From Bacilli bacterium (GTDB taxonomy: Bacteria; Bacillota_I; Bacilli_A; RF39; UBA660), in assembly GCA_017484205.1 (NCBI GenBank), contig JAFUTO010000018.1:1-64000 (forward strand): DNA of 64,000 nucleotides. Direction: 5' to 3'. The position numbers were made by a program, and so were the translations under genes. Numbering within the stretch: position 1 is the stretch's first letter; every line of letters begins with the position of its first letter. Shown here one piece after another: positions 1,468-61,644 of this stretch. The notes beneath the pieces were generated by a model. The model made no database searches and was not told where the DNA came from. It saw nothing but the letters and a program-made list of their open reading frames with translations.

Positions 1468-1608
1468 AACCCCTCACCTCACGGTAGTTATTATATTATA
1501 AAAAAGTAAAATGGGCAAATTGATAACAAAAAATACAGCATAGTCATTTTGTTTATATGGATTACATATATTAGTTTAAAATGGTATTTCTATTAATTAC
1601 CTCTATCA

Positions 1609-1818
1609 TCATTTTTTATCTTCTATCTTCGATATTTTGTTGTTTAGCTTAGTATATTCCTTACACTTTTTTTCTAACAATTTAAAATCAACAGTTTGTG
1701 CTAAATATGGTATAACATAATTATTGATTTTTTGATTATATAAAACATTAGCATATTTTTTTATCATCGTTTCATTTTTGTGAATAAAATCCAATTCTTT
1801 TTCAAAATAAAAAGGCAA
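1609..1818 (-). CDS. small doubtful reading frame, perhaps a gene remnant
   Basis: Sixty-nine codons rich in Lys, Asn and Glu, with no recognised domain. The only available start is TTG, two codons after an in-frame stop, inside the hairpin at 1811-1838 and without a convincing ribosome binding site. Composition is protein-like, so it may be the 3' remainder of a decayed gene. It sits in a gene-poor stretch (1470-2229). Confidence 0.25.
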   Translation of the reverse strand: MPFYFEKELDFIHKNETMIKKYANVLYNQKINNYVIPYLAQTVDFKLLEKKCKEYTKLNNKISKIEDKK

Positions 1819-29543: not shown

Positions 29544-30545
29544 CTATTTTACTATCCAACCATTAGGTAACCAACGTTCACCACTTGCCGAATAAGCAAC
29601 TGGTTCATTATATGCTTTGCCATTAACAGCTAAGACTACAGAAGCACCACCATCTAAATTAGCAGCATTATATGCACCATATCTTTCTAAAATAGATATC
29701 ATTTCAGACATAGTAGCACCACCTCTAAAGCCATATTTACTACCAGAACCATCAATTGTTAAAAATAACATTATACCATCTTTTCTTTGGGCAATTGCTG
29801 TTCTAGGATTAACACCATATCCACCATTTCCTAAAATTTGAGATGATTTACCATTTACAATTAAAAATGGTCCAAAATATACGGCATCCCTTATTCCCAT
29901 ATTAATGGCTTGTTGAGCTGTCATATACCCTAATGTCAAAACATTATCATTAGTTATTCCTATTACTCCAGAAGCTGCACCACCATAATTTTCTATTACC
30001 TCACCATTAGAAATAAATATTCCGGCTGCTAAAGCACCATCGCCTTCACCATTTACATCTACAAAAGCACCACCATTTATCGCGACTAAAGCACCTGATT
30101 TAGCTGCCATTGTAGATAAATATTCTCCCCTATATCCATAATAAGCACTTTTTGTTGTTGTAACTCTTGATGGATCATATATTACTGTTAAATATGCATG
30201 ATAACCATTTCCGTCAAATTCAATTATTTTGTACACATCATCAGGATCTCTATTCAGTATTTGTTCTTCATAAATCGAATCATAGATTATATCGTCTGCT
30301 TGAGTACCAAAATTTATCAATGAAGTATCAGTTGTCTCGTTTACTACAATCGTTTTATTTGATGAAATTATACTTTCTATTGTATTTTCACTATAAAACA
30401 CTCTTGCTAAATATCTATGTGATTTTGTTTCCATTGCTGTTGTAACAAAGTAAGTTCTAAAATTATCATTTGGACCATAAACAATAATAAAACATACAAT
30501 AGCTATTAAATCCATTAAAATTAATAAAATCGTACTTCTTTTCAT
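29544..30545 (-). CDS. phosphodiester glycosidase family protein (NAGPA domain)
   Basis: After an N-terminal membrane segment (about 5-24) comes the conserved NAGPA domain: ALVAINGGAFVD, FGPFLIVNG, GYGVNPRTAIAQRKDG, FLTIDGSG and NLDGGASVVL. In this family such domains cleave sugars linked by phosphodiesters; bacterial members act on the cell surface, probably on wall teichoic-type or exopolysaccharide bonds. The total of 333 residues is usual. It is close to the degenerate mutase gene upstream (30553), so both may serve the envelope. Confidence 0.87.
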   Translation of the reverse strand: MKRSTILLILMDLIAIVCFIIVYGPNDNFRTYFVTTAMETKSHRYLARVFYSENTIESIISSNKTIVVNETTDTSLINFGTQADDIIYDSIYEEQILNRDPDDVYKIIEFDGNGYHAYLTVIYDPSRVTTTKSAYYGYRGEYLSTMAAKSGALVAINGGAFVDVNGEGDGALAAGIFISNGEVIENYGGAASGVIGITNDNVLTLGYMTAQQAINMGIRDAVYFGPFLIVNGKSSQILGNGGYGVNPRTAIAQRKDGIMLFLTIDGSGSKYGFRGGATMSEMISILERYGAYNAANLDGGASVVLAVNGKAYNEPVAYSASGERWLPNGWIVK

Positions 30546-30552: not shown

Positions 30553-31716
30553 CTACTTTGTTATATAAAAATATAAAAACCTAGTAATATAATATATCAT
30601 ACATGATAATATAAAAATAACACTTATAATTCTAAAAATAACTCCATATACAGCAAAACGATTAGATATCAATGTTTTTCCCATACCACTAGGAACTCTT
30701 AATTTAAATAGATCTAGTATAGTCCCAGCAACTGATGTAATATCGCCATGTTTAAGATTAACTTTTTTCGATAACAAGAAAACTCCTTGATTTTCATTTT
30801 CTGATACAATTGCCATAATACCAGACATTTCCACAATCTTATCATTCAACTTTATTAAATCTTCTTCTGAATCAAGGTGTGTGATTACCAAATCGTATTT
30901 TGTTAAATCTAATTTTAGAATATCATCATCTATTATCTTTTCACCCTTATACTTTTTATTTCTAAAACCATCAAATTCATAGTTATTAATATTACATCTT
31001 AGTTGTTTTAAACCTTTATCACTAATACACTTACCTAAAGAAACACATCTAGGTAGGTCATACATATAATGTATCTTATTATATGTAAATATAGTTAATA
31101 TATTAATATTCTTTAAAGTCTTTGTGGAAAATTTTTTAAAATTCTTAGATGTTAACGCTTGGATTAGTTCTTCATATACATCAATGCTATTATTGAAGAA
31201 AATAACTAAATCATTATTATTAACATTTTTATTTTCTAGATTTTCATCAGTATTAATTTTTTTCCCTCTCACAATTGCATCATATATTTTTAAATTATCC
31301 TTTATATCTATATCTATAAAATTACATATTTTACCAATACCTACCTTTTCATTCAAAGATTTTAGATCAGTGTTTTTATCTACGAATAAATGCAAATATA
31401 CTTCTTTTATTCCATTTTCTTCGCATGCTTTTAATATAGCGTATAGATTGTTTTCATCTTTAGCAATATCTCCTATAATATGAATTTTAGATTTTTTTGT
31501 TTTGGCATATTCTATAGAACTTAATAGTTTAGTATTAGTATGAAACTTGGAATCCTCTATTTCTTTTTCAATAAAAGATTCTAATGAAACCATATTTTTA
31601 CCTAAACCAATGCTAGCATAATTAAAGTTTTCATATTTAAGTGGCACTTTTGAATAATGATTAAATTTATCCGAAACTATTTTATTATTAAAAATGCAAA
31701 GTACTACAGGTTTCAT
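30553..31716 (-). CDS. degenerate phosphoglycerate mutase (GpmI-like) pseudoenzyme with C-terminal membrane segment
   Basis: Landmarks align along the whole length of cofactor-independent phosphoglycerate mutase. KPVVLCIFNNK stands where the enzyme has KPVVLxILDGWG; NYASIGLGKN where it has the HLNIGAGR region; KIHIIGDIAKDENN for LHLMGLxSDGGVHSH; EVYLHLFVDKNTD for VxxHAFLDGRD; DLVIFFN, LKQLRC and AGTILDLFKLRVPSGMGKTLI for later segments. The metal ligands and the Ser of GNSEVGH are all missing. Residues about 365-390 form a hydrophobic segment near the C-terminus. It cannot be a normal mutase; I infer a binding or regulatory role at the membrane. Start at ATG 31716 (SD GGAGTGATAGT). Confidence 0.7.
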   Translation of the reverse strand: MKPVVLCIFNNKIVSDKFNHYSKVPLKYENFNYASIGLGKNMVSLESFIEKEIEDSKFHTNTKLLSSIEYAKTKKSKIHIIGDIAKDENNLYAILKACEENGIKEVYLHLFVDKNTDLKSLNEKVGIGKICNFIDIDIKDNLKIYDAIVRGKKINTDENLENKNVNNNDLVIFFNNSIDVYEELIQALTSKNFKKFSTKTLKNINILTIFTYNKIHYMYDLPRCVSLGKCISDKGLKQLRCNINNYEFDGFRNKKYKGEKIIDDDILKLDLTKYDLVITHLDSEEDLIKLNDKIVEMSGIMAIVSENENQGVFLLSKKVNLKHGDITSVAGTILDLFKLRVPSGMGKTLISNRFAVYGVIFRIISVIFILSCMIYYITRFLYFYITK

Positions 31717-31785
31717 ACTATCACTCCTGATATTATATTTTACCATATAAATGTCAAAAAATATATATAAAATAAAGAAAAAGAT

Positions 31786-31812
31786 AGATTATTCTATCTT
31801 ATGCAATTTCTA
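31786..31812 (-). terminator. terminator of greA
   Basis: AAGATAGA pairs with TCTATCTT around TTAT; TTTTTC follows on the minus strand. Confidence 0.75.
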
Positions 31813-32281
31813 CTATTTTGACATCATAAGATCCGCCAGGACTATTAACAGTCTTAGTATCTCCTACTTTACCACCAATAATTGCTTGAGCAATTGGTGA
31901 TTCATTAGAAATCTTATTGTTAGCTAAATCAACTTCCTTGCTTCCTACAATAGTGTATGTTTCTTTTTCATTATCATCTACATATTCTATTGTTACAGTT
32001 ACACCAACATTAACTTTATCTTTCTTTATCTTATCAGAAATTACTTCTACATTTTCAATCATAGATTCAAGTTCAGCTATTCTACTTTCACATTCAGCTT
32101 GAGCACTTCTAGCAGCATCATATTCAGCATTTTCAGATAAATCTCCTAAAGCTCTTGCTTCTTTTAATGATTGAATAATTTCTGGTCTTTTAACATTTTT
32201 TAATTCATCTAACTCAGTTTTAAGTTTTTCTAAACCTTCTGCAGTTAAATATACTTTATTATCATCTTTCATGATTTTCAC
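31799..32281 (-). CDS. greA: transcription elongation factor GreA
   Basis: GreA rescues backtracked RNA polymerase. The N-terminal coiled coil (EGLEKLKTELDELKNVKRPEI, then LKEARALGDLSENAEYDAARSAQ) carries the acidic tip DLSENAEYD that reaches the active site. The C-terminal FKBP-like domain ends with GGKVGDTKTVNSPGGSYDVKI. The 160 residues are standard. In Bacillus greA follows yrrM-yrrN-yrrO-udk; here yrrN and yrrO lie directly upstream and udk is absent. Confidence 0.97.
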   Translation of the reverse strand: MKIMKDDNKVYLTAEGLEKLKTELDELKNVKRPEIIQSLKEARALGDLSENAEYDAARSAQAECESRIAELESMIENVEVISDKIKKDKVNVGVTVTIEYVDDNEKETYTIVGSKEVDLANNKISNESPIAQAIIGGKVGDTKTVNSPGGSYDVKIVEIA

Positions 32282-46569: not shown

Positions 46570-49167
46570 TTAATAATAATCATCATTGAAGAAATCATCA
46601 AAGAACTCATCTTCGGTAATTTGATGTTTAGCTTCTTCAGAAACTTCATAAGTATCCTTTGTCTCAGGACTATCATTATTTTGAATAGCTTTTTGTAATT
46701 CTTCTTCTTGGGCTTTTCTTCTTTCTTCAAAGGCTTTTAATTCTGCTTCTCTTGCTTCGTTTTCAAGTCTAAGTTCTTCAATGCGTTTATTTTCAGCATC
46801 TATCTTGGCTTGTTCAATAGCCCTTGCTTCTTCTAACTTAGAAATTCTTGCTTTTTCTTCATCTAATTTCTTTTTCTTTTCTTCTTCTAAACGAATTAAT
46901 CTTTCTCTTTCTTCTTTTTCTTTAGCAAGTTTTCTCTCTGTTTCTTCTTTTAATCTTTTAAGCTCCTCGTTTTTCTTCTCTTCTTCAGCCATTCTGGCGT
47001 CAGCCAAAGCTTGTTTTCTCTTTAATTCTTCTTCTATTCGTTTATTTTCAATTTCTTGTTCTTTTAATTCTGCCTCTTTTGTTTTAGTTTCTTCTTCAGC
47101 TTTCTTTGTTTCCTCTTGTTTTTTCTTAATCTCTTCTATCTTAGATGATTCTTTCTTCATAGCTTCTCTTACAGTTGCCTTAATAGAATCCTTTTCTTCA
47201 GCTGTTAAACTTCCTGGAACCTTTTCATCTTTAACTTCCTTATTTGTCTCCTTTGGAATTTCAATCTTTTCTTCCTTTGGTTTATCAGGAGCAAGAGTTG
47301 GTTTTGGTTTATTTTGTTCAGCAAGTTTTTGATCAATTTTCTTAAAGAAATCATTGATATCCATATTAGGCTTAGCTCCACCAGAACCTGATCCAGCTGG
47401 TGCACCTTGGTTACGTCCTGCCATACCAGCTAACATATTGTTGATTTTTTCATCACGTTTAGCGTCTATAAATTTTTTAAGATCAAATAGATGAACTATA
47501 CCTTTTTCTCTTTGTGGATAATCAGATTTAGGATATGACCTACCCCATAAATGATCTCTTTCCATTTGCCAGTTATACATCATTTTAGTCTTAAACGGCA
47601 TTGTACGAGTACGTAGAATAATTATTGTTCCCATTGGTAATCTTTGTAAATCTGATACTGTAACTAATGGTGTTGAAGCAGTTTTATCTTTTTCTTTAGA
47701 TTTTACTTCACCACACATTTTAGATATTTCTTCTAGCGCGGCAAGTTCACTACTAATTAAATAAATGATATTACCGCAGTTACCTTTAATTGTATCTCCA
47801 TCTTCTTTACCATACACTTGTGATAATTGAGCAAAGTTTTGGATGATAAATGTGAATCTTATTTGTCTTGAACGAGCTGCTGTAACCATTGTTGTAACAT
47901 CTTTAAGTGGTGGCATGTTTGCAAACTCATCTAGAATAAAGTTTGTTTTATAAGGTAACTTACCACCATTTTCTTGAGCTACATCAATTAATGTTTCATA
48001 ACATTGTTTTAAGAATATGGTAGCAAGTGAATGGTATGTTTTCTTTTCATCATGAATTACTAAGAAAACTGCAGTCTTCTTTCTACCGATATCTTCCATT
48101 TCAAAATCACTTTTAGAAAGCATTTCGGATAAATTTTCTTTAGATGAGAATAATTTAATCTTTTGTTTAAATACTGATAAGATACTTTGTTTAGTATCAT
48201 TTGGTGCATTAATAGTAGAAGATGCATTCATATAAGCAATACTTTCAGGTCCTTTTAGATTGAAGTATTCCTTAATATAAGTAGAAGGTCCTACTTTATC
48301 TTCACCAACTGTAGTCATTAAGTTGATACTATTGATATTTATTTCTTCTTCCTTCGCGTCTTCAAATAGACCCAAACTTAAACCAGTAAAATAATCAGCT
48401 GATGTTTTTTCCCAAAATGGATCTTGGTTTTGTGCATTTTGGTCATATAGAATATTAATAGCTAAGTCATCTAATAATTCTGTAGCTTTATCTTTATTAC
48501 CACTTTTATATAATTGATATGGTAAATTTAATGGGTTCCATGAATTACCATTTTGTGGATTACGGAAATTTAATAGTACAACATTATAACCTTTTTCTCT
48601 TAATTCAACGGCATTTCTTTCATATATTTCACCTTTAGGGTCAGTGATAATCATTGATTCACCCTTTTTAGCTAATATTTTAACCATCGGTTGAACGATT
48701 ATTTCAGTTTTACCTGATCCAGTAGAACCTATAATCAAGTTATGATATTCTCCTGAATCTACCCAAATTGTTTTACCATTATTGATAAGAGGTATACCAG
48801 CTTTATCTATTGTTTCAGAACCTGGTAATACTGGGGATAATTGTTTTTGAAATTCTCTTTCTGTTTCCCACCTAGAATAACCTTTTTCTTTTTTAGGAGT
48901 AGTACTAAATCCAACACCTTTATCTCTTTCAAAGAAATAAGATGATACTCCCAAAAATGATGCAACTATAACTGCTACAAAACCAAATATAGTAGCTAAT
49001 AAATAATCCGGTGTAAAGGCCATAATTGGGTTAAATCCCCAAAATGCACCATAGTTTGCAAAATATGATAAATTTAATACAAGTACAGCAACTATATAAA
49101 GAGCAACTATACAATATAATATAAATATCATCCATTTTTTTGGATCTGCTGTTAATTTTAATTTCAT
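46570..49167 (-). CDS. virD4: VirD4/TraG-type coupling protein with long coiled-coil tail
   Basis: Coupling proteins are hexameric ATPases that feed DNA or proteins into type IV secretion channels. Two membrane segments (about 12-35 and 52-78) come first. Walker A GSTGSGKT is at 147-154 and Walker B FILDEFANMPP near 413-423, followed by the typical ARSRQIRFTFIIQNFAQLSQVYG region. The last 220 residues or so are a highly charged Lys/Glu coiled coil ending in an acidic DDFFNDDYY tail, longer than in most relatives. I suggest a substrate- or partner-docking arm. It is the last gene of the cluster, 11 bases after the beta-type protein at 49179. Confidence 0.93.
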   Translation of the reverse strand: MKLKLTADPKKWMIFILYCIVALYIVAVLVLNLSYFANYGAFWGFNPIMAFTPDYLLATIFGFVAVIVASFLGVSSYFFERDKGVGFSTTPKKEKGYSRWETEREFQKQLSPVLPGSETIDKAGIPLINNGKTIWVDSGEYHNLIIGSTGSGKTEIIVQPMVKILAKKGESMIITDPKGEIYERNAVELREKGYNVVLLNFRNPQNGNSWNPLNLPYQLYKSGNKDKATELLDDLAINILYDQNAQNQDPFWEKTSADYFTGLSLGLFEDAKEEEININSINLMTTVGEDKVGPSTYIKEYFNLKGPESIAYMNASSTINAPNDTKQSILSVFKQKIKLFSSKENLSEMLSKSDFEMEDIGRKKTAVFLVIHDEKKTYHSLATIFLKQCYETLIDVAQENGGKLPYKTNFILDEFANMPPLKDVTTMVTAARSRQIRFTFIIQNFAQLSQVYGKEDGDTIKGNCGNIIYLISSELAALEEISKMCGEVKSKEKDKTASTPLVTVSDLQRLPMGTIIILRTRTMPFKTKMMYNWQMERDHLWGRSYPKSDYPQREKGIVHLFDLKKFIDAKRDEKINNMLAGMAGRNQGAPAGSGSGGAKPNMDINDFFKKIDQKLAEQNKPKPTLAPDKPKEEKIEIPKETNKEVKDEKVPGSLTAEEKDSIKATVREAMKKESSKIEEIKKKQEETKKAEEETKTKEAELKEQEIENKRIEEELKRKQALADARMAEEEKKNEELKRLKEETERKLAKEKEERERLIRLEEEKKKKLDEEKARISKLEEARAIEQAKIDAENKRIEELRLENEAREAELKAFEERRKAQEEELQKAIQNNDSPETKDTYEVSEEAKHQITEDEFFDDFFNDDYY

Positions 49168-49178
49168 GTTATTACCTC

Positions 49179-49934
49179 CTAATAACTACTAACTAATTCA
49201 ATATATTCACCATCATCTAATCCATATAATGAATATTCATTTCCTAATAATGAAAATTTTTCTTCAGAAATTATAATCTCTAAATTATTATCACCATCAA
49301 AATCTATTATAGCAAAAATATTAAAACTTGTCTTATTAATTAAATTATCTGTTTTTGTGATTGTTGATTTAACAATTTTATAATCACCTTCACTATAATA
49401 AGCGACAACAGAGAAATAACTACTCTCGTTAGATTCAGAAAACATATTAGAAATTATATAGAAATATTCACTATCACCATCATCATTGGAATCAATTTTT
49501 ATTTTATCTGATGTGGATAATGCACTATAACCACTGATACCTATTTTTTTTAATATATCAGTAATTTCGGATTTAGATATTTCATATTCTCTATCATATT
49601 CATATATTTTAAACTTATTATTAGCTTTATATGCGAGTAAAATATTATCATATAAAACATAATCATTAGTTTCTTTAATATACCATTCCCCATCTATATA
49701 TCTTAAATCGTGTTTACCTTGATCTTGATCAATATATGGGGCATAAACATGATAGTTTTTTAATTCAATATTGTTACTTCTATCTATATTATTCCATTTC
49801 TTATTAGAATACTCCCATCTAACATTTGTGTCAATATAAATATACTTTTTTGATGAAGAATCTATATGTCCTATGCCAAGAGATATTACTAAATATAATA
49901 ATACCACAAATAATATAATAGCATACTTTTTCAT
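49179..49934 (-). CDS. secreted or anchored protein with Asp-rich repeats, unknown
   Basis: A 251-residue protein with an N-terminal hydrophobic segment (3-20) that may be a signal peptide or anchor. Two segments, SNDDGDSEYFYI near 154 and DFDGDNNLEIII near 215, resemble the calcium-binding loops of FG-GAP/VCBS-type repeats. The middle has short Trp/Tyr-containing repeats (RYIDGEWYI). It lies between the C39-like peptidase and VirD4, so I infer a surface role in the same machine. No family recognised. Confidence 0.65.
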   Translation of the reverse strand: MKKYAIILFVVLLYLVISLGIGHIDSSSKKYIYIDTNVRWEYSNKKWNNIDRSNNIELKNYHVYAPYIDQDQGKHDLRYIDGEWYIKETNDYVLYDNILLAYKANNKFKIYEYDREYEISKSEITDILKKIGISGYSALSTSDKIKIDSNDDGDSEYFYIISNMFSESNESSYFSVVAYYSEGDYKIVKSTITKTDNLINKTSFNIFAIIDFDGDNNLEIIISEEKFSLLGNEYSLYGLDDGEYIELVSSY

Positions 49935-49942
49935 AATATCAC

Positions 49943-52078
49943 CTAACCATTATCTCTAAATACACGTAGACCAACTATAGTTCCTGGTGGATATAGCTTA
50001 TCATCATCCAAATAAGTTGGTGTTGCACTGACACCTGGATCAGCTATGACAACACGACCATTTTCAATACCTACAACAGCAACAAAGTGTGCCCCATTTT
50101 TAACATGTAGTACAACATAATCTCCTGCATTTAATCTTTCACTTACTATAGTAGCTATTTGATTTTTTGTTTTCCCCTTTAAAATGTCACCTGACATTGC
50201 ATCCACACGTATAAAATTAGGAGCAAGAGATTTCCATGCAGGATTAGCACCGTTAGGAACTGCTAAACTACCACCAGAAGTGAAACCATTATTATCTTTT
50301 ACAACTTTAGCTAAAACTCCTGGGTCAAATGTATCTTGTGTAATATATGTTCCTGAATTAGCCATTAGAATAGCAATAGAAGTTATATAACATCCTACTT
50401 TTCTTATTGAAGAATTTGAGCTACTGCCAAGCCATACTCCACTCCACGCAGCACCAAATTGTTTCCAATTTGTCCCTTTAGTTCCAACAGGTACATCACT
50501 TACATAGGCTGGTCCACCACCACCCTCGTCTGTATCAACATAAGCAACCATCGAACCATTAAAATCATAATTAATGATTAAATAGTTATCTTCACCTTGA
50601 ATACCATAATAATCGTTTCTAGAATTTACTATATCATAAATAGTAGATTTTATAATAAACTTTTTCTCATCATCAGTATATTTCTTCCAAACTGAATTAT
50701 ATACAGTTGGTACATATACTTTTGAAATATAATTGAAAAACATTTCATAATCGTTTATTTTTGTTGTCTCATATTCAGCTGTTGGATATAATGTAACATT
50801 ATATGGTTGATTTTGTGCATTATATCTTACCTCTGTTCTATTAGGTTGACTTTCACAACCATCTATTTCAGTATGAAGATTAGACATATCATTTAAAATA
50901 CGATTTAAAACATTTTCATCTATAATAAATTTAGATAGTTCAACTTTATATGATAAATAGTTAGAATTTTGACTACCAAAACTTGCTATATTATCTATAG
51001 TCTTAGCCACATTTGCAATTTGTGATAACATACCAAATGGTCCTGCGCCTGATGTAATAATTATTTGTTTAGCGCTATTGATGCTTACATCAGCACCTGC
51101 AAGTAAACCATTATAAGCGTATTTATATAATTGAACCACATTATTAGCTTTAATGCTTGAACGTTCACTACTATCAACAAATTCACAACTTACAGATATT
51201 TCTTCACCCATCAAACTATATATCATTGTTCCTGCTTCACTTGAAGAGCCTAACATTTCATTTTTCATAGTATAAAAAGAGTGTGAACTTGAAGCATCAA
51301 TACCAAAATCTTTTTGTAAATCTTGAGGTGTTTCATCAGTACTTTTTTCTCCATCTGCTTCGAAAATATCTGAGCCAAATATTACTTGATTATTAACAGT
51401 TGCATATAAAATTCCTTTATCCAAGCCTGGATTATTATTAATATTTCCTTTGACTAAACAGTTTTTACAATCATTAGCAGCTTGATCTATCTTCTTTTGT
51501 ATTTGCTCTGTATTACTACTAAAGCCATTTAAAGTTAAGAAATTATATGTTTTTTCTCCACCTTCAATTAAATCATTTAAACTTACATTTGCAGCATTTA
51601 TTGATGCAATTATTAGTATAAGAACAATAAGTCCAATAGCTACATAACCTAATATTGGCCATACGACTGGCGGAATTTTAGAAATAAACTTTATTACTTT
51701 AGCTGCTTTCTCAGCTGTTTCAATTTTATTTGCAACATTTGAAGAACCCAATCCATTTTTTAATAAATTAGTTCCTGCTTTAGACGCAAAAGAGGAAAGA
51801 CCACCTCGGTTATTTCCACTTTGTTTATTTGCTTCGTTTTGTTCTATATTTTCAGAATCAGAAGCATTTTGATTATAATTTGATTGAGCTAAAGCATTAC
51901 CAGCCATGTTTGCTACTTTTCCTGCTATAGGATGACCTGATGCAGTTAAAGCTTTACCAGCTGCGTCACCTAATTTAGTTGAACTAACTGCAGATGCTTT
52001 TGCTTTAGCTTGATCTTGTAATTCTTTATAAGCATTTTTTCCAGTGGTACTATTACCACCTAAATTATTATTATTCAT
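49943..52078 (-). CDS. membrane protein with C39-like cysteine peptidase domain
   Basis: The 711-residue protein has a Gly/Asn/Ser-rich start (1-125), one membrane segment (138-160), a middle domain of about 350 residues and a C-terminal C39-like domain from about 540. There VGCYITSIAILM holds the likely catalytic Cys, GAHFVAVVGI the His, and VVIADPG the Asp. In Gram-positive type IV systems the protein at this place is usually a two-domain wall hydrolase (VirB1/CwlT type). Here a C39-type peptidase replaces it and may cut wall cross-links or process a substrate. Confidence 0.8.
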   Translation of the reverse strand: MNNNNLGGNSTTGKNAYKELQDQAKAKASAVSSTKLGDAAGKALTASGHPIAGKVANMAGNALAQSNYNQNASDSENIEQNEANKQSGNNRGGLSSFASKAGTNLLKNGLGSSNVANKIETAEKAAKVIKFISKIPPVVWPILGYVAIGLIVLILIIASINAANVSLNDLIEGGEKTYNFLTLNGFSSNTEQIQKKIDQAANDCKNCLVKGNINNNPGLDKGILYATVNNQVIFGSDIFEADGEKSTDETPQDLQKDFGIDASSSHSFYTMKNEMLGSSSEAGTMIYSLMGEEISVSCEFVDSSERSSIKANNVVQLYKYAYNGLLAGADVSINSAKQIIITSGAGPFGMLSQIANVAKTIDNIASFGSQNSNYLSYKVELSKFIIDENVLNRILNDMSNLHTEIDGCESQPNRTEVRYNAQNQPYNVTLYPTAEYETTKINDYEMFFNYISKVYVPTVYNSVWKKYTDDEKKFIIKSTIYDIVNSRNDYYGIQGEDNYLIINYDFNGSMVAYVDTDEGGGGPAYVSDVPVGTKGTNWKQFGAAWSGVWLGSSSNSSIRKVGCYITSIAILMANSGTYITQDTFDPGVLAKVVKDNNGFTSGGSLAVPNGANPAWKSLAPNFIRVDAMSGDILKGKTKNQIATIVSERLNAGDYVVLHVKNGAHFVAVVGIENGRVVIADPGVSATPTYLDDDKLYPPGTIVGLRVFRDNG

Positions 52079-52104
52079 AGTACCACCACCAAACTATTAA
52101 ATTA

Positions 52105-53889
52105 CTATAGTCCTCCACCAGAACCAAATGAATCTAATTCTTGTTCTGTAACAACTATATTAATTCTCATTCTACGGTTACCACATACAAATAATGCTTC
52201 ACCTTGGTTATAACGTTTAATACTTTCTTTCTCATTATCATTTAAATCAATTAATTTAGATAAGTCTTCTACAGCTTGTTTCTTTAATCCCATTACTATA
52301 TAGTAAGCAGCATTATCAAATATTGCTTTACCTTGAGTAATAACCTTTGGATCAGAGAAATCAGTAGGTTGTTGTGTAATAATGATTGTACCAGTATTAT
52401 ATTTTCTAGCACGTCTTTGTACTTGCGCTAAGAAATCCGCACCTAATGTGTTATTCGCACCCATTAAAACATGTGCTTCATCAACCATTAATACTGTATT
52501 TTGATTAGGATCTAATGTAAGACCCCACGCGTATTTTAAGATATTGAAGAATAGTGCATTTCTAACATTACTATCAGAATTCATTAACTCTTTAATATTA
52601 AATACAATAAATTTTGAATTTGAACTTATTGTTGTATGACCATCAAAATAATATTTCAATTCTTTAACTAATGGTCTTACTTTTATTTCTAGTTTTTCTA
52701 AGATATCTCTTTCTTGAGTTCTTTCAGACATAGACATTATTCTACCTCTAATAGTTGCATAGACATCTTTTAATGTTGGATAATCCTTAGATGTAAATTT
52801 AGTATAATCTGTATTAAAATCCATACCAAATCTTCTATATGTTTCTTGAGCAATTTCACTAAACATATTAACTACATCATCTTCCATTGATGGATCATAG
52901 TATTTAATAAACGCACGTAAAGTTTGTAATGTTCTTGTTAATACTGTATAACCTAAACCTTGTTCTATTTCTTCAGCATCAGCATCCATTACAACTTCAA
53001 GTGGATTTATCATACCGAATTCTCCACCTTTACCTAAATCAATGAAGTCACCATCATATAATTTAGTCATTCCTTCAAGTTCACCTTCAGGGTCAATTAC
53101 AACTAATTGATTATCATTTCTTATATTAGTTCTAAGAAGTAATTTAGCTGCTGTTGATTTACCTGAACCAGATGTACCTAGAATTATTACATTGGCATTA
53201 TTTCTATTATTTTCTTTCTTAATTTGATATAAGAATTGATTAAATAATATAACACCACCTGAGAAATCGACACCTAGCAAGCAAGATAATCCTGGATCTT
53301 TAATACTATCAAAGATGAAAGGATACATTGCCGCGATTGTAGGTGCAGGTATTGGAGTACCAATTCTATCTTCTATATCTTGTTTAGGATAAATAGGTAA
53401 AATTGATTTCAATACTTTTTCTTGTTCAAATCTTAAAGGTACAGTTCTAATTTCCATAGCCTCTAAGTAGTTTTTAACTTGCATTTTTTTAGCCATTAAT
53501 TCATCATCTGTATCAGCAGTAATCATAATATGCATTTGAAAATCATATATCTTTGATTGACTACTTGCTAACATAGATATGAAGTATTCTAATGACTCAT
53601 AATCTTGTCTTATTCTTTCTTGAATAGTTTTATCAGGTTCATCTTGATATCTTTGCTTTAAATCAGCAATTTCTTTATTTAACATTTTTTGAATAACTGA
53701 GAATGGTAATGGTATATGTTTAATTACCATTTTGATACCAGACATACTAGTTAATGATGACAAGAAACCTGGATATATAAATTTAGGATAACTAATAGCA
53801 GTTAAAATAGTTGCTCTTTTATCACTAATTATAAATTCAGAAGGTTTAAACTCTAATCCTTTAGGAGCAATTTGACTTCTAATATCCAT
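52105..53889 (-). CDS. virB4: VirB4-type ATPase, main part
   Basis: VirB4 is the conserved motor ATPase of type IV secretion. The 594-residue protein carries part of the VirB4 N-domain, then Walker A GTSGSGKS at 238-245, Walker B VLMVDEAHVLM near 447-457 and the final RRARKYNTGTIIITQQPTDF region. Its first ATG overlaps the stop of the preceding small gene (TAATG), and that gene supplies the missing N-terminal domain. Thus VirB4 is encoded as two coupled pieces. Confidence 0.93.
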   Translation of the reverse strand: MDIRSQIAPKGLEFKPSEFIISDKRATILTAISYPKFIYPGFLSSLTSMSGIKMVIKHIPLPFSVIQKMLNKEIADLKQRYQDEPDKTIQERIRQDYESLEYFISMLASSQSKIYDFQMHIMITADTDDELMAKKMQVKNYLEAMEIRTVPLRFEQEKVLKSILPIYPKQDIEDRIGTPIPAPTIAAMYPFIFDSIKDPGLSCLLGVDFSGGVILFNQFLYQIKKENNRNNANVIILGTSGSGKSTAAKLLLRTNIRNDNQLVVIDPEGELEGMTKLYDGDFIDLGKGGEFGMINPLEVVMDADAEEIEQGLGYTVLTRTLQTLRAFIKYYDPSMEDDVVNMFSEIAQETYRRFGMDFNTDYTKFTSKDYPTLKDVYATIRGRIMSMSERTQERDILEKLEIKVRPLVKELKYYFDGHTTISSNSKFIVFNIKELMNSDSNVRNALFFNILKYAWGLTLDPNQNTVLMVDEAHVLMGANNTLGADFLAQVQRRARKYNTGTIIITQQPTDFSDPKVITQGKAIFDNAAYYIVMGLKKQAVEDLSKLIDLNDNEKESIKRYNQGEALFVCGNRRMRINIVVTEQELDSFGSGGGL

Positions 53890-54437
53890 TAACTCATCAC
53901 CGTCCCAAATTTAGTAGTTTGTCCACCATTTAAGAAATTATCTAAAATCATTCTTAAATCATCATTAGATACTTGTGTTGCAGATAAACTAGCACCTGCT
54001 AAATAATTAATTAGGTTTCTTACTCTCTTTTGAATTGTCTCATCATTTTTTTCCTTAAAAAGAATAAAGTATTCTGTATCAACTACATTGTTATTCATAA
54101 ACATATTAGCTTTGTTAATATCTTCCATTATTAATTTTCTTTTGCTTGGAGCTTGTGTTGAATTATATAATACTTGTAATTGTGATAGATATAAATTTAT
54201 ATCTACTGGTCTATCAGCTGCAATAGTCCAAAATTCATAATCAATCATATTATACACATTTCTTAGATTATCAATAATAGCATTTTGAGTACCTTGATCT
54301 AAGATAAATATATTCTTAGGCATTATTTTAACGCCAGTAACTTTCATACCATTAGTAAGTAATATAACACCATTATTGATAGCTCTTACAGGGATATCAT
54401 CAACTGTATATTTACTTTTTACTGTCTTTTGATTCAT
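53889..54437 (-). CDS. separate N-terminal domain of VirB4-type protein
   Basis: The 182-residue protein looks like the first domain of TraC/VirB4 proteins: VRAINNGVILLTNGMKVTGVKI resembles the early strand pair, and the rest (NLYLSQLQVL, TEYFILFKEK, IQKRVRNLINYLAGASL) fits the following helices. There is no P-loop. It overlaps the VirB3-like gene by 26 bases and the ATPase gene by one base, so all three are translated together. The reading frames join cleanly in a stop-start, not in a simple decay, which favours a functional split. Confidence 0.75.
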   Translation of the reverse strand: MNQKTVKSKYTVDDIPVRAINNGVILLTNGMKVTGVKIMPKNIFILDQGTQNAIIDNLRNVYNMIDYEFWTIAADRPVDINLYLSQLQVLYNSTQAPSKRKLIMEDINKANMFMNNNVVDTEYFILFKEKNDETIQKRVRNLINYLAGASLSATQVSNDDLRMILDNFLNGGQTTKFGTVMS

Positions 54438-54735
54438 CTAATGCACACCAACCTTTCCAAACATATTGTTGTCTTGTTGTATAGAACTCCCATACATTTG
54501 TTAAAACAACTCTCATATTATGGTAATTAGGAACTGGGAGTACTAGAAACCCAGCTACTAATACCGGCAATAACACTATTATAACTGTTAACAATGTATC
54601 AGCAGATAAAGTTAACAATAATATTAAAGTTGCACCAATTCCTGAGCCAAATATAATCAAATCTATTGGTTGGAACACACCAAATATTAACATTGATCTT
54701 TTTGAATTGGCAGGAATTAAATAATTTCCTCTCAT
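54412..54735 (-). CDS. VirB3/PrgI-like membrane protein
   Basis: A 107-residue protein with two adjoining membrane segments (about 25-42 and 46-65). The ending PVPNYHNMRVVLTNVWEFYTTRQQYVWKGWC is typical of the PrgI family (landmarks PNYHN and YVWKGWC), which takes the VirB3 place next to VirB4 in Gram-positive type IV systems. A strong site AAAGGAGG precedes the ATG. Confidence 0.85.
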   Translation of the reverse strand: MRGNYLIPANSKRSMLIFGVFQPIDLIIFGSGIGATLILLLTLSADTLLTVIIVLLPVLVAGFLVLPVPNYHNMRVVLTNVWEFYTTRQQYVWKGWCALDESKDSKK

Positions 54736-54759
54736 CTATGTTCCTCCTTTTTATTCTAT

Positions 54760-56760
54760 TTATCCATCCATACGACCTGGATCAAATGGTGTCCTAGGAT
54801 CATTACTATTGCTATTATTATTTCGTGGAGCATTGCTGCTAACACTATTTTGTGCATCTGACATCATTTGAAGAATTTCATCATCACTATAGTTACTAGC
54901 TCCTTGACTTGTTGATGGTATAATAACATCACTATGATTCATTCCTACCTCAGCATCACTTAGCATTTCAAACACAGGTTTGTCGTCTGGAGCAGCATTT
55001 ATCACATTTGTAACTGTAGGATTTCCTGTTTCATTATATTTACGAGTTTTAATAGAATCTTCCAATCTAGCATCATCAGCATATGTTTTTCTCATTGATT
55101 CATGTGTTGCTTCTAGTCCTTTTAATGTTTTTGTAGAAGTCTCAGTTGCTCTTTGTAGGTCTGCTATGGAAGTATACGTTTTACCATTTACTTTTACACC
55201 TTTGAATGCTTGTCCCATAGCTTGAGCCTGAGTTAATGCAGCTTGGAAGTTCTTATTTCTTTCGCCTTCATTATCAGCATTCATCAAAGAGTTTATGAAA
55301 TCATTATGCTTATAACCAACTTTGTCATATGCGCTTCTATTTTTACCATCTAATGCTTTAATATTATCAATTCCTGCTCTGTCGCCGCGTTTCCATTGTT
55401 GATCCATTTTTCTAAGTTCATTTCTACCTTCTGTTCTACGTTTCAACATATCAGCATGCATAGGCGCTAAATCACTAAGTTTCTTTGCATTACCACCTAA
55501 ACCAACACTTGAGAAACCATGTTTTAAGCCTTCCCAAGCATTACCACCATTCATTGCAGCATCTACCGCTCCGATACCAGCACCTAAAGCAGCACCAGCT
55601 ATAGGAACAGAACTCAATTGTTTCATTGGATTTAAATTGAATTTTCCAGATAATTTTAATCCTGTAATATCCTCTATAATTTTAGGTAATTCTTTAGCAA
55701 ACATCAATGTACCTAAGATTAAGAATATAACAACAAATATTCCTGGTTCTTTGCAATTTGTTGTTGATAAGGCATCACCTGAAAAACTCCAACTACATAT
55801 TTTCACATCTCTATTCATAATAAATTCTGTTATTATGTATATTGCAAAATCAATACCGGCTAATCTTACAAATAAATCTAGATATGTACTTGTACAAGTA
55901 TTCAACCACTTTTTGAACATTCCTTGTCCTTTATCGTCGATGTAAGAAACAATTGGAATAGGAGCAATTAATTGTAAAAACGCTAATTTAATTGTACGTG
56001 TAGCAATATCTATACAGAACATAAGCAGTACATAAGCAACAAATCCGCCTACTAACGATGATATACCAAATATATAGGTTACAACGAATGTATCACCATT
56101 TGTTGTATCAGGTATCCTTGCCATTTTTGTTAAATATGTATAACCACCTGTTGATTGATATGCATTATAGTATGCGTTAGCAGCTGTATCTTGTCCATCT
56201 GCTTCCAAAGACCTTTTACACTCTTCACTATATGTTACAGAATCACATCCAGAATATGAACTATCCGGTCTAATAAATCCCGATAATATTTGTGTAGCTA
56301 TTTTATCACCAACGGTACTTTTGTCACTATTAGTAGCAACACTATAATCACCGCCTGAATTACCAGTTATAAGTCTTCCGATTGTATCATCTTCTAATAT
56401 TAAGTATTGTAGTGCCATTGCATATCTAAATACAATTGGAACAACTAATATCATAACAAACATTATAACAACATTTTTTATGATACCACCAAAACCATTT
56501 TTAGAATCAGTCATCTTATCTGGTTCAATTATGTATTGAACAATTGAAAAAGATAATTTGAACAACATAATAACACCAATAATGGTATAAATTCTTTGAC
56601 CAAATGATCCTACGCCATCTGAGCCAAATATATTTACTCTAGCTATATCCGTCATTAAATTATATACTTGTATTAATAGCCAATATATTACATTGTCAAA
56701 AGCTGAAAATAATACTCTTATGCCGCTTAATATAAAATGCCCAAAACTAGCTAAGACCAT
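54760..56760 (-). CDS. VirB6/TrbL-like polytopic channel protein
   Basis: The 666-residue protein has an N-terminal half with about six membrane segments (including near 15-40, 58-75, 95-120, 225-250, 290-310 and 340-360) and outside loops with Cys residues (CDSVTYSEEC, KICSWSF..TTNC). The C-terminal 280 residues are hydrophilic and rich in Asn, Asp and Lys. Size, topology and position before VirB3 and VirB4 genes fit the VirB6/TrbL/TcpH group, the inner-membrane channel. Start at ATG 56760 (SD GGGTGATGTT), with a promoter at 56807-56835. Confidence 0.82.
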   Translation of the reverse strand: MVLASFGHFILSGIRVLFSAFDNVIYWLLIQVYNLMTDIARVNIFGSDGVGSFGQRIYTIIGVIMLFKLSFSIVQYIIEPDKMTDSKNGFGGIIKNVVIMFVMILVVPIVFRYAMALQYLILEDDTIGRLITGNSGGDYSVATNSDKSTVGDKIATQILSGFIRPDSSYSGCDSVTYSEECKRSLEADGQDTAANAYYNAYQSTGGYTYLTKMARIPDTTNGDTFVVTYIFGISSLVGGFVAYVLLMFCIDIATRTIKLAFLQLIAPIPIVSYIDDKGQGMFKKWLNTCTSTYLDLFVRLAGIDFAIYIITEFIMNRDVKICSWSFSGDALSTTNCKEPGIFVVIFLILGTLMFAKELPKIIEDITGLKLSGKFNLNPMKQLSSVPIAGAALGAGIGAVDAAMNGGNAWEGLKHGFSSVGLGGNAKKLSDLAPMHADMLKRRTEGRNELRKMDQQWKRGDRAGIDNIKALDGKNRSAYDKVGYKHNDFINSLMNADNEGERNKNFQAALTQAQAMGQAFKGVKVNGKTYTSIADLQRATETSTKTLKGLEATHESMRKTYADDARLEDSIKTRKYNETGNPTVTNVINAAPDDKPVFEMLSDAEVGMNHSDVIIPSTSQGASNYSDDEILQMMSDAQNSVSSNAPRNNNSNSNDPRTPFDPGRMDG

Positions 56761-56806
56761 AACATCACCCATTCTTCTATATTTTTATTTAATTTCCACC
56801 ACAATA

Positions 56807-56835
56807 ATTATACCATAAATATAGCGCATTTACAA
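56807..56835 (-). promoter_or_regulatory. promoter of the VirB6-VirD4 part of the cluster
   Basis: TTGTAA (56830-56835), 17 bases, TATAAT (56807-56812) with TGG before it (extended -10). It can drive the seven genes from 56760 to 46570. Confidence 0.65.
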
Positions 56836-56904
56836 TTAACTTAATATATATTTTATAAGGTTTTTTCTAAAATTTTAAAGATTGATAATGTTTTATTAAT
56901 TATA

Positions 56905-57804
56905 CTAATTTAAAATATATTCTCTAGATAAAATTCTATCATCAGAAGCATATTTAATTATAAATTCATTATTTTCCCTACATATAATTATTCCTATCGT
57001 TTTATCTTGATTTATTGTTTTAATATTTTCATCTATATAATTCATATATACTTGTATTTGACCTATATATTCTTTCTTTAATTCTGTTATTTTTAATTCT
57101 ACAACTACATAACTATTAAATTTAATATTATATAAAAGTATATCTATATAATTATAACTATTACCTATCTTTATAGGATATTCATTACCTATATACGAAA
57201 ATCCTTCACCTAATTCTTTTAAAAAATTATCTATATTTTCTAATATAAGTAATTTAAGCACTTTTTCTTTATTCACATTTATATTATTTGGATTGCCAAT
57301 TATAATAGGATTCTTTATTATATCAGGCAATGTTATATCTTCTTTATTAATTAGTTTCATTTTTGTTTTATCATCTAATCTTTCGTATTCTTTAGATTTG
57401 ATTCTATCTCTTAAACCTCTTATAGTTAAATTTTGTTGCTCCGTTAAATTAATGTAATAATTCATTTCATTAATGTCTTTTATTGACAACAATTCAAAAT
57501 AGTGGCTTTGAGTCAATTGGTGCGACATTGTCGCACCTTTTTGAATCATCAAATAGAATTGACGCATTCTCTTTAATAAAGTGGTATTGTACTTCTCCCC
57601 AATTTCTTTCATTAACTTTATTGAATATTCTTTAATTAAATGTTCACCATATTTAGATCTAGATTCTCCTCCCTGAGCTTCTATAAGTAATTTCCCCACA
57701 TTATAACAAGTCATCAAATCTGATCTATTTTTTGAATAATCCTTTACCTTTCTATATGTCTCGTTATTTATTAATTCTTGTTTTATTTCTTCATAATAAT
57801 TCAT
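56905..57804 (-). CDS. DUF1016/YhcG-type protein with PDDEXK nuclease fold
   Basis: The N-terminal helical domain (YYNVGKLL-type segment near 33-42, then SKYGEHLIKEYS) and the region KRMRQFYLMIQ are typical of DUF1016. The C-terminal domain holds YIDILLYNIKFNSYVVVELKI, that is the D-(X)n-ExK core of PDDEXK nucleases. Such proteins occur near restriction and mobile elements; their role is not settled. It interrupts the order VirB2-VirB6 and is preceded by AGGAGG twice, with a nine-codon frame (starting MKRRNYELL) overlapping its start. It is probably an inserted cargo gene. Confidence 0.85.
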   Translation of the reverse strand: MNYYEEIKQELINNETYRKVKDYSKNRSDLMTCYNVGKLLIEAQGGESRSKYGEHLIKEYSIKLMKEIGEKYNTTLLKRMRQFYLMIQKGATMSHQLTQSHYFELLSIKDINEMNYYINLTEQQNLTIRGLRDRIKSKEYERLDDKTKMKLINKEDITLPDIIKNPIIIGNPNNINVNKEKVLKLLILENIDNFLKELGEGFSYIGNEYPIKIGNSYNYIDILLYNIKFNSYVVVELKITELKKEYIGQIQVYMNYIDENIKTINQDKTIGIIICRENNEFIIKYASDDRILSREYILN

Positions 57805-57892
57805 AATTCCTCCTTTTCATAAATTTACCTCCTATTTATAACATACGTGAAAACTTTTTAATTTCCTTTTTTTGGAAGATTTTTTAAATTTA

Positions 57893-57927
57893 GACACAAA
57901 AAAAGCAATGATATCATTGCTTATTTA
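57893..57927 (-). terminator. terminator of the VirB2-like pilin gene
   Basis: AGCAATGA and TCATTGCT form a perfect stem around TA, with T7 on the minus strand (plus strand A7). It separates the pilin transcript from the nuclease gene. Confidence 0.7.
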
Positions 57928-57932
57928 CTATA

Positions 57933-58262
57933 TTACTTAGCACCTAATAAACTAGATACGCATGCCATAATGCTTTGGCCATCTTCTCCAGCTACTAAAG
58001 TTACAACTAACTTAACAATTGTAAATACAAAGAATACAATTGCTGCAGCTATTAATCTTGAAACGAAAACTTTTTGGTTTTTCTTGATATCGTCTTCCTT
58101 TTGAGAGATAACTGCCTTACCTAAATCTAACATACCCATAATAATTAATAGAAGTGGAATACCTATTCTAATAACATTATAAATTAAAGTTGTTAAACCA
58201 ACTATTTGAGCTGGGACAGTTACATCACCACAAGTTACTTCTTTTGCTAAAACGAAAAACAT
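57933..58262 (-). CDS. VirB2/TrbC-like pilin or channel subunit
   Basis: A 109-residue protein with two long hydrophobic segments (about 18-41 and 64-87) divided by a charged loop SQKEDDIKKNQKVFVSR, and one Cys on each outer side (TCGD near the start, MACVSS near the end). This is the shape of VirB2/TrbC-type proteins of Gram-positive type IV systems; there is no cleavable signal of the classical kind. ATG 58262 has AGGAGG at an ideal distance, plus its own promoter and terminator, so it is probably made in excess, as expected of a fibre subunit. Confidence 0.75.
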   Translation of the reverse strand: MFFVLAKEVTCGDVTVPAQIVGLTTLIYNVIRIGIPLLLIIMGMLDLGKAVISQKEDDIKKNQKVFVSRLIAAAIVFFVFTIVKLVVTLVAGEDGQSIMACVSSLLGAK

Positions 58263-58284
58263 AAAATTCCTCCTCACTACTTAT

Positions 58285-58313
58285 ATAATACTATTATTTT
58301 ATATGTTTGTCAA
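58285..58313 (-). promoter_or_regulatory. promoter of the VirB2-like pilin gene
   Basis: TTGACA (58308-58313), 17 bases, TATTAT (58285-58290), just after the stop region of the preceding gene. Confidence 0.65.
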
Positions 58314-58321
58314 TTATTTCC

Positions 58322-59398
58322 TTATTTTATAATATAAGGTTTAGCTTCTGTTCCATCACCTGATATATATGTGTTTTCTCCACTAATATTAAACATAATA
58401 GAAGCTCTTACTGTATTATTGGTTCTCTTTTCTTCTACGTATCCATATGAAATCGTAAATGCTTGATATGTATTCTCAGCTACTCCAGTTAAAGTCCATA
58501 CAGTATACTCATATATATTATAGAAATAATTGTAATTAGCACAGGCGCCATCAAGCACACTTTTACAGTTACTATCAAGACTAACTCTTGCATACTCAAT
58601 AGGAGTTATTAATCCAACATAATCTTTTACTGTTGAACTACACTCATTTAGACTCATTGATCCATCTTCTAACCCACGTTTTGCAGTACACCAATCATAA
58701 TTGATAATATATTTTTTTAAACTATCATCATATTTTTCATATGCCTCATCAATAGTCTCTTTAATCCTACTTTTTGCATAATCATTTATTCCTAAACTAT
58801 CTTGTTTTCTTTCTACATTATATCTATTATCAAATGGATAAGTAACATTTGATGTTGTACTTTCAACTAACTTTATATTGTTATTACTATCTATAGAAAC
58901 AATTCTATATATCTTATCAGCTAATTTTATATAGTTATTTACATATTCACCTCTATAGTAATATGTACCATTTGATGCATACAAACCATTACCTGAAGTG
59001 ACTACATTTTCTTTTAATACATCAATTATTTCTCTAGTTTTATACTCACTACAATCTAGTGAAACAATATGTAAGTATTGTCCATTATTGTTTGTAGTTT
59101 TAATTTCAGCACTACAACCAGTATTTCTAGTTGATTTATCAAATGATTTCATGTATTTATTTGATATTAATGTTTCGGATGTTATACGAACAGATTCACC
59201 ATCATTTTTAGGTAATTCTTCTGAATGGTCATTATAATATCTTACAGTTGCTCTTTCAATTAGGTTTACTAATTTATCATTGCTTACCTTAGAGCCCATA
59301 ATCGCTATGATGATAAAGAATAATACAAGTATTACTACTAGACCACCAATCAACATACCAAACATTTTAAACATTTTTTTATTTTCTTCTGTTAACAT
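58322..59398 (-). CDS. membrane-anchored pseudopilin-like protein with DUF6273-like domain
   Basis: The 358-residue protein has one membrane segment (about 13-34) and an outside part with several Cys. From about 135 comes SGNGLYASNGTYYYRGEYVNNYIKLADKIYRIVSID (landmarks GLYASNG, NYIKLADKIYRIVSI), the start of a domain common on surface proteins of gut Bacilli and often annotated DUF6273 or formylglycine-enzyme-like. It sits between the CpaE-like ATPase and VirB2, so I infer a tip or adhesin part. Identity with a known pilus gene is not claimed. Confidence 0.65.
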   Translation of the reverse strand: MLTEENKKMFKMFGMLIGGLVVILVLFFIIIAIMGSKVSNDKLVNLIERATVRYYNDHSEELPKNDGESVRITSETLISNKYMKSFDKSTRNTGCSAEIKTTNNNGQYLHIVSLDCSEYKTREIIDVLKENVVTSGNGLYASNGTYYYRGEYVNNYIKLADKIYRIVSIDSNNNIKLVESTTSNVTYPFDNRYNVERKQDSLGINDYAKSRIKETIDEAYEKYDDSLKKYIINYDWCTAKRGLEDGSMSLNECSSTVKDYVGLITPIEYARVSLDSNCKSVLDGACANYNYFYNIYEYTVWTLTGVAENTYQAFTISYGYVEEKRTNNTVRASIMFNISGENTYISGDGTEAKPYIIK

Positions 59399-59409
59399 CT
59401 TCTATCCCC

Positions 59410-60417
59410 CTATAAACCAAGTAAACCTAAAATACCCTTCTTTTTCTCTGCTTCTTCTGAATCACTTTGTTGAGTAAATCCCATCTTAGTCAACATAGAG
59501 TTAAGAATATATATATCTTTTTCTCTATCATCTAATGGTGGTAAATTATAGAATACTTTAAGCCTTGCTTCGTATTCAAAGTCTAATACATCTTTAGCTG
59601 TTAATAGACTTTTATTTAAAACGACATGTTTTCCTTTTAAAGTTTCTAATATTTGTGGTTCTACCATCATCATTTTATTAATTCTAATAATAGATGGTTC
59701 TATTAAATACAAAATATCATGTACAGCAGACATAGCTGGAGAACTACTATTCATATCAATTAAAATAATGTCAGCATTACTATTTTTAGCTACAACACTA
59801 CCTATATTAGTAGAAGTTGTTGAAATAAGTGATTTATCTCTAAAATATGTAAAATCGCTTTTATCTACTTCAATTGCTACTACTTTATAGTGCTTTTCTA
59901 ACATTTTTTTCATCATATATACTAATGTAGTAGCACCTGCTTCTTTAGTAACATTTTTAATACCTATGATTCTAACACCATGTGATGAATCGTAAGCAGT
60001 CATACCCATACCACTGCCTGTCCCATCATCTTCATGTTCAATTTGATGATATTGTGCAACATCACGATATGTATTAGGATGATTATATAAATACATTACA
60101 CCCTCTACATTTTTAGTGAAGTTATAAATACCTATCGAAATAAGCTGTGACAAAAATTCTGGTGATGATACTTCTGGTGAATCATCTAGTAATAAGATTA
60201 ACTTATCCATATCTAATGATATAGATAATTTTTGTAATGTTTTTATATCAGTATAATCCTTTAATGCAGTTATATCTAATACCATTCTTTGATAGAAAAG
60301 GTTTTGATATTTAGATATAATTTCATTAACCTCAAAAACACCTTGTTCACTTTTTATAACATCAATCGTTAAACTTTGCAATAATTCTGCTGATTTATTT
60401 GAAATAATAACGTTCAT
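59410..60417 (-). CDS. CpaE/TadZ-like ATPase
   Basis: TadZ proteins place the Tad pilus at the cell surface. The first 110 residues look like an atypical receiver domain. From about 148, IIGIKNVTKEAGATTLVYMM is a CpaE-type P-loop in which KEAGATT stands for the usual KGGVGATT, with one Gly pair altered. DIILIDMNSS near 215 is the Walker B strand. A Lys-rich tail ends GILGLLGL. Start codon overlaps the stop of the preceding pseudopilin gene (TAATG). Confidence 0.78.
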   Translation of the reverse strand: MNVIISNKSAELLQSLTIDVIKSEQGVFEVNEIISKYQNLFYQRMVLDITALKDYTDIKTLQKLSISLDMDKLILLLDDSPEVSSPEFLSQLISIGIYNFTKNVEGVMYLYNHPNTYRDVAQYHQIEHEDDGTGSGMGMTAYDSSHGVRIIGIKNVTKEAGATTLVYMMKKMLEKHYKVVAIEVDKSDFTYFRDKSLISTTSTNIGSVVAKNSNADIILIDMNSSSPAMSAVHDILYLIEPSIIRINKMMMVEPQILETLKGKHVVLNKSLLTAKDVLDFEYEARLKVFYNLPPLDDREKDIYILNSMLTKMGFTQQSDSEEAEKKKGILGLLGL

Positions 60418-60875
60418 TAGTTCTCATACCACCTTTCTCCATCAAAGTTCCAATATATAATTTGAGAATCACCTTTAACTTGTAAAGTTAAATATTGCCC
60501 TATAGCAGGGATATCAAAATGTACATACACAATAATATGATAATATGGACCTCTAGTAGTTACTTTTTCATATATACAATAATCAAATCTACCAGGTCTA
60601 ATATCATGTACTATCCTCATATCTTCAATTTCTTTGCATTTACGGGTACTATCTGTATTAACAGTATAACCCATCTTTCTTAAATCTTCATATATATCCT
60701 TTTCAGCATCGCCATCTTCTTCGTATCCATTATATTTTTCAATAATACCTACTATTTTATTTTTAGCTTTAAACGCTTTTGTATACGCGATTGTGCCTAT
60801 AATAATCATCATTATCAAAAAAGAGAATACAATAGCAAGTGTCATTAAAAAAGCATTACCTATAGATTCTTTCAT
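60417..60875 (-). CDS. TadE-like pseudopilin 2
   Basis: The 152-residue protein starts MKESIGNAFLM, then has a hydrophobic segment (about 10-32) and KAFKAKNKIVGIIEKYNGYEE. The C-terminal domain has two Cys (RKCKEI, DYCIYE). It is a clear paralogue of the next gene: both share MKESIG, the membrane segment, YxKAFKA and IxEKYxGY. Shape and place fit TadE/TadF minor pilins. Ribosome binding site GGGAGTG. Confidence 0.72.
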   Translation of the reverse strand: MKESIGNAFLMTLAIVFSFLIMMIIIGTIAYTKAFKAKNKIVGIIEKYNGYEEDGDAEKDIYEDLRKMGYTVNTDSTRKCKEIEDMRIVHDIRPGRFDYCIYEKVTTRGPYYHIIVYVHFDIPAIGQYLTLQVKGDSQIIYWNFDGERWYEN

Positions 60876-60892
60876 TTTTTAATCACACTCCC

Positions 60893-61360: not shown

Positions 61361-61391
61361 AAAGCTACCTCCTTAACGCAAAATTAGTTAA

Positions 61392-61583: not shown

Positions 61584-61611
61584 TTTATCACCACCTTACC
61601 TCTACATTTTT

Positions 61612-61644
61612 ATTATACCATATTTTTGGTATTGTAAACAATAC
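61612..61644 (-). promoter_or_regulatory. promoter of the Flp-like pilin with palindromic operator
   Basis: TTGTTT (61636-61641), 18 bases, TATAAT (61612-61617) with TGG before it. The -35 lies inside a nearly perfect palindrome, GTATTGT-AA-ACAATAC (61629-61644), which directly follows the tadC stop and could bind a repressor. Confidence 0.6.

Follow-up and report, generated by a model that had tools for sequence, protein, structure and literature searches.

Why would a bacterium keep, as a long open frame directly before the gene of an envelope glycosidase, a relative of a glycolytic enzyme that lacks the residues of its active site? This question is raised by one gene of the window, by which we mean the whole 64,000-nucleotide stretch of DNA that was analyzed, from an uncultured gut-type bacterium. 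The gene lies on the minus strand at 30553..31716 and encodes, from an ATG at the 31716 end, 387 amino acids followed by a stop; a Shine-Dalgarno-like AGGAG lies 5′ of the ATG at 31724..31728 on the same strand. We refer to its product as pseudo-GpmI.

The gene, its neighbors and its fold

The next gene in the 3′ direction, separated from the pseudo-GpmI stop by 7 nt, encodes a NAGPA-family phosphodiester glycosidase with an N-terminal hydrophobic segment (29544..30545, minus strand; PF09992, 1.4e-39). Upstream is a greA-like gene, named by eye (31799..32281, minus strand). A first-pass annotation of this DNA had described an operon region with envelope enzymes. The glycosidase does adjoin the gene, but it is the only adjacent enzyme of the envelope type, the other neighbors being mixed (greA, U32 peptidase, dus, lysS and ackA, by eye). 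Promoter-like and terminator-like matches were no commoner than in shuffled sequence. Elsewhere in the same genome there is a second NAGPA-family gene (G000:C12:21999-22991).

The protein was recognized by the Pfam iPGM_N profile PF06415 (1.8e-15, 57.5 bits against a cut-off of 27) and by TIGR01307 (1.7e-19, 69.7 bits, which does not reach the equivalog cut-off of 330.65 bits), while the PF01676 Metalloenzyme domain gave no match in it at E values up to 10. Solved GpmI chains in the PDB matched it by sequence, down to 3e-10, and the GpmI core motifs MKPxVLCI, VYLHLF and LKQLR are present. Together with the alignment to relatives, the two profile matches bear out the earlier proposal of a GpmI homolog with its landmarks in order. 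In a GpmI tree the protein grouped with intact GpmI (bootstrap 99), on a long branch. A scan of genome contigs for close relatives with P0001 as the sole query returned no match, and an alignment of nine members contained no stretch conserved enough for use as a search query.

An AlphaFold2 model of the protein had a mean pLDDT of 90.5 and a pTM of 0.79. Its input alignment had 26 rows, the window protein together with related loci; proteins of the GpmI type, full length or longer, make up 24 of these rows, so that the alignment may favor a GpmI-like model. Searched with Foldseek, the model found Bacillus stearothermophilus GpmI 1ejj as its best solved match (E 2.4e-22, TM 0.72 by query length), and all 22 solved chains at E < 0.001 were cofactor-independent phosphoglycerate mutases. 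The structural overlay on GpmI that had been suggested as a check thus gave the GpmI fold and not an unrelated one. Fold and landmark order are therefore common to the window protein and GpmI/iPGM (TIGR01307, PF06415 plus PF01676; PDB 1ejj, 1o98). Unlike GpmI, the window protein has no catalytic or metal residues, has undergone about 149 residues of deletion, carries an added C-terminal transmembrane (TM) helix, and shares its genome with a GpmA.

Loss of the active site and constraint on the remaining protein

We compared 16 catalytic positions, comprising the catalytic Ser, two metal sites and the substrate Arg/Lys residues, numbered after B. stearothermophilus GpmI. All 33 intact or fused GpmI proteins aligned had identical residues at these positions. 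The window protein kept at most one of them, by chance alignment. Two further proteins described below, from genomes G001 and G151, resembled it in this respect; each of the three retained at most one or two of the 16, within otherwise lost motifs, and no metal ligand or catalytic Ser was retained in all three. Across the 101 columns invariant in the 33 GpmI proteins, the window protein kept 25 residues, with 36 substituted and 40 deleted.

Measured against a GpmI of 500 aa, the protein lacks 149 residues, in eleven gaps of at least 4 residues and some shorter ones, and the loops that bore catalytic residues are largely deleted. By alignment to relatives, the blocks changed or deleted are DGxG, GNA...GNSEVGH, SDGGxHS, DGRD, GRYYxMDRD and NxRxDR, and also AETEKYxHVT, PSPKVxTYDLxPEMSA, MVGHTG, TADHGN and T.H. 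Residues 10-11 (31684..31689, minus strand), for instance, align as N-N with the D-G of the LDGxG metal motif of intact GpmI, and residues 304-309 (30790..30807, minus strand) read VSENEN in place of TADHGN. It had been reported that the active-site motifs are all changed; they are indeed lost, but mostly by deletion rather than substitution.

We compared the gene with its counterpart in one other genome of the same genus, G001, a separately assembled contig of Bacilli bacterium RGIG9169 from the reticulum of a water deer. The ortholog there has 378 aa, is 40-41% identical from end to end, and has the same losses and the same tail. The order U32 peptidase, greA, pseudo-GpmI, NAGPA, TM protein, dus is the same in both (all but NAGPA named by eye). 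Pairwise codon maximum likelihood rejected omega = 1 for the whole gene (2dlnL 104). For the soluble GpmI-fold part, residues 1-345 (30682..31716, minus strand), the value was 102, indicating purifying selection in a comparison of two orthologs at saturated dS; for the 42-residue tail alone it was a weak 4.1. Maintenance of the fold could explain part of the constraint on residues 1-345.

The dN of pseudo-GpmI, 0.57, was the highest among the genes compared; scaled to the dS of greA, dus and ackA (about 2.5), as its own dS is saturated, it suggests an omega of roughly 0.2, versus 0.03-0.09 for those three genes. Given the strong AT bias of the sequences and synonymous sites close to saturation, a simple NG86 dN/dS of 0.56 for the pseudo-GpmI pair was set aside in favor of codon maximum likelihood. 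The codon-model results indicate that pseudo-GpmI is constrained, though it evolves faster than its neighbors. An ortholog with the same losses and gene order is not what random decay would give, and the loss of the catalytic site combined with purifying selection supports the earlier proposal of selection for a non-enzymatic role; what that role may be is taken up below.

The phosphoglycerate mutase step of this genome is probably carried out by an unrelated enzyme, GpmA, in place of GpmI. A 234-aa GpmA-type protein is encoded on contig C11, and in the draft genome (92.5% complete) iPGM_N had no match beyond the window locus, so no intact gpmI was found; a search for both genes had been recommended at first pass. 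Among 37 draft genomes of the bacterial family, ten had a strong gpmA match (G000, which is the window genome, G001, G272, G349, G003, G188, G289, G299, G203 and G205), and intact gpmI was absent from all ten. Genomes with intact gpmI had only weak histidine-phosphatase matches, so that gpmA and intact gpmI never occurred together across these 37 drafts. The window also encodes a small histidine-phosphatase (PF00300; 24366-24914, minus strand) between lysS-like and ackA-like genes. It is conserved in G001 and is distinct from the GpmA on C11.

The membrane tail and its counterparts in relatives

The hydrophobic segment near the C-terminus is a helix in the AlphaFold2 model (residues 354-386; 30559..30657, minus strand), and the model and the likeness to TM segments of relatives predict a membrane anchor. 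Within it, RFLYFY (residues 379-384; 30565..30582, minus strand) follows a juxtamembrane form, R-x-x-[HYF]-[YF]-[YFK], common to the relatives. Scored with a profile built from the TM segments of relatives, the tail reached 13.8 bits, the best of 166 window frames (the next scored 1.7), and the tail of the G001 ortholog reached only 7.5 bits.

NAGPA-family proteins are widespread in the bacterial family of the window. In most of the NAGPA loci inspected, NAGPA is directly preceded by a TM segment of this kind, which as a rule forms the N-terminus of a protein (about 395-465 aa) that also has an outside domain; in many, gpmI lies beside this TM protein, and some NAGPA genes have no such segment upstream. 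The tail of the window protein matches these segments in sequence and in its position directly before NAGPA. The annotated gain of a membrane segment therefore needs rewording: the segment is present, but it probably did not arise de novo, since it resembles the TM element that in relatives is usually found before NAGPA. The outside domain that follows the TM segment in most members is missing in the window, where the protein ends 3 residues past the motif, and it is also missing in G219, G001 and G151.

In a quick NAGPA tree, G219, from a sister genus, came out closest to the window genus, with an SH-aLRT of 100 for the group of three. The gpmI of G219 is intact, with 108 nt from its stop to NAGPA. 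A possible 36-aa TM ORF with a TTG start, MKVKIEKIFIIVSIIFISFMILFYGFRLFYYYFTMK (L104, about 1592-1710, minus strand), lies in a frame different from that of gpmI, overlaps the gpmI stop and ends just before NAGPA; it scored 46.9 bits against the TM profile. From the sequences, the window gene looks like an in-frame fusion of gpmI with a small TM element, which is the simplest reading.

Active fusions also occur. Intact GpmI that continues into a TM segment and then an outside domain, in proteins of 943-945 aa, was found in G178, G417, G357 and G281, of one genus, and in G147, of another (L066 130-2967, plus; L067 1594-4425, minus; L099 1553-4387, minus; L100 138-2975, plus; L101 1610-4447, minus). 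The outside domain of the L066 fusion is DUF6273-like, and a further 958-aa fusion frame is present in G543, of the same genus as the G178 group. The five proteins of 943-945 aa have the same kind of TM join as the window protein, with NAGPA next. Unlike it, they retain an intact active site and the large outside domain and are the sole iPGM_N match of their genomes. Their five genomes had no strong gpmA match either, so that for both genera a protein joined to a membrane segment is the only phosphoglycerate mutase that was found.

Two other loci, from two further genera, show loss. In G151 (L065 4509-5852) a GpmI of up to 447 aa, depending on the start codon, has lost its active site, has a C-terminal TM tail and overlaps the NAGPA gene that follows; unlike the window protein, to which it is 28% identical, it is less deleted and its genome has an intact gpmI elsewhere. 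In G272 (L103 1656-3410, minus strand) a 584-aa protein begins with about 160 aa of eroded GpmI-like sequence, continues through a TM segment into an outside domain, and is followed by NAGPA. By eye, the GpmI-like part has MKPVVLCIING at its start and GSLVDTTPTMLEILNIKKAKNIIGSSLF before the TM segment; this genome has gpmA. The GpmI part measures about 500 aa in the active fusions, 395 in G151, 350 in the window genus and 160 in G272. Judged from sequence relationships, the G151 and G272 cases probably have origins separate from that of the window genus, because they lie apart from it in the NAGPA tree, in which several forks are weak. The change from enzyme to membrane protein has probably happened more than once among these relatives.

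A second set of proteins derived from GpmI, about 460-560 aa long, which we call the 'NGFG' family (L159-L188; for example, L159 1498-3087, plus, and L160 1492-2877, minus), was found at E < 1e-45 in more than 40 genomes of this bacterial family. Most have an NGFG-type motif at the start, catalytic residues are missing in all 30 examined, and about ten have a C-terminal TM segment. Their neighbors are conserved in small groups only, with no recurrent NAGPA. Like the window protein they derive from GpmI and have lost the active site. Membership of the window protein was ruled out, as the 'NGFG' family forms a separate group in the GpmI tree, and the family profile had no match in the window genome.

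Origin and possible role of the window protein

The origin of the window gene is well supported, and its present function we infer from the evidence given above. The reading we prefer, at a probability of roughly 60%, is that of a catalytically dead, tail-anchored protein of GpmI fold, displaced as an enzyme by GpmA and kept as a membrane partner of the adjoining glycosidase. The ancestral state would have been a cluster of gpmI, TM segment and NAGPA gene, the window gene being the old gpmI. GpmA appears to have taken over the mutase step in this lineage, and gpmI may have lost its stop and become joined in frame to the adjoining small TM element. The product would be tail-anchored, with an N-terminal GpmI-fold domain, expected to be cytoplasmic, and one C-terminal membrane helix; this domain has no active or metal site, yet its sequence is still held by selection. 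Pseudo-GpmI most likely serves the NAGPA-type glycosidase encoded next to it as a membrane partner, in a structural or regulatory capacity, and would contact it through the TM helix. We propose this partnership because it is the helix that accompanies NAGPA across the family. Counting against this reading are the weak selection signal of the tail alone, the low score of the G001 tail with the TM profile, and the NAGPA genes that have no TM segment before them.

A serious alternative, though on balance an unlikely one, is that the TM tail alone matters as the partner of NAGPA and that the GpmI part is a relic, an N-terminal extension eroding by deletion. The frame would stay open because stops would remove the tail and uncouple NAGPA translation, and the 7-nt spacing to the NAGPA start fits such coupling. 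The variation in size of the GpmI part among lineages and the high dN of pseudo-GpmI speak for it as well. Against it, residues 1-345 are under purifying selection of their own (2dlnL 102), although this value comes from two orthologs and may partly reflect fold maintenance, and the GpmI part is 41% identical to that of the ortholog.

We consider it improbable that the protein is a changed enzyme whose remodeled pocket binds a ligand or catalyzes another reaction. The confident, compact predicted fold and the purifying selection would suit such a protein, but no metal ligand or catalytic Ser is common to the window, G001 and G151 proteins, and the loops that bore these residues are largely gone. 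Least credible, and very improbable indeed, is a functionless pseudogene or assembly artifact: the ruined active site and the draft state of the genome speak for it, but a full-length open ortholog stands in the same gene order in the separately assembled RGIG9169, and the codon model rejects neutrality.

Beyond the dead membrane partner preferred for this locus, a wider generalization is possible but doubtful: in this family of gut-type Bacilli, GpmI may repeatedly have become anchored in the membrane by way of the TM partner of NAGPA, then lost its active site in lineages with a displaced or duplicated mutase, and persisted as a regulatory subunit in the cytoplasm. If true, this would be a repeated route from a glycolytic enzyme to a membrane pseudoenzyme that regulates an envelope phosphodiester glycosidase. 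Likely intermediates survive among the relatives, ranging from genes still separate, through a possible small TM ORF, an active fusion and a dead fusion, to a shrunken remnant, and the order of displacement, fusion and active-site loss is therefore testable. The loci also raise the question of why a glycolytic gene adjoins an envelope glycosidase.

Pseudoenzymes are known in many families. The window protein looks like a GpmI-derived pseudoenzyme with an acquired membrane anchor, and no description of one derived from GpmI was found in the open-licence literature searched, which offers partial coverage.

Two other features of the window were noted. Positions 46570-63999 hold what by eye resembles a gene cluster for a Tad pilus or for type IV secretion, with VirD4-, VirB4- and TadA/B/C-like genes, and one stretch of the ORF at 58322-59398 resembles the outside domain that adjoins NAGPA.
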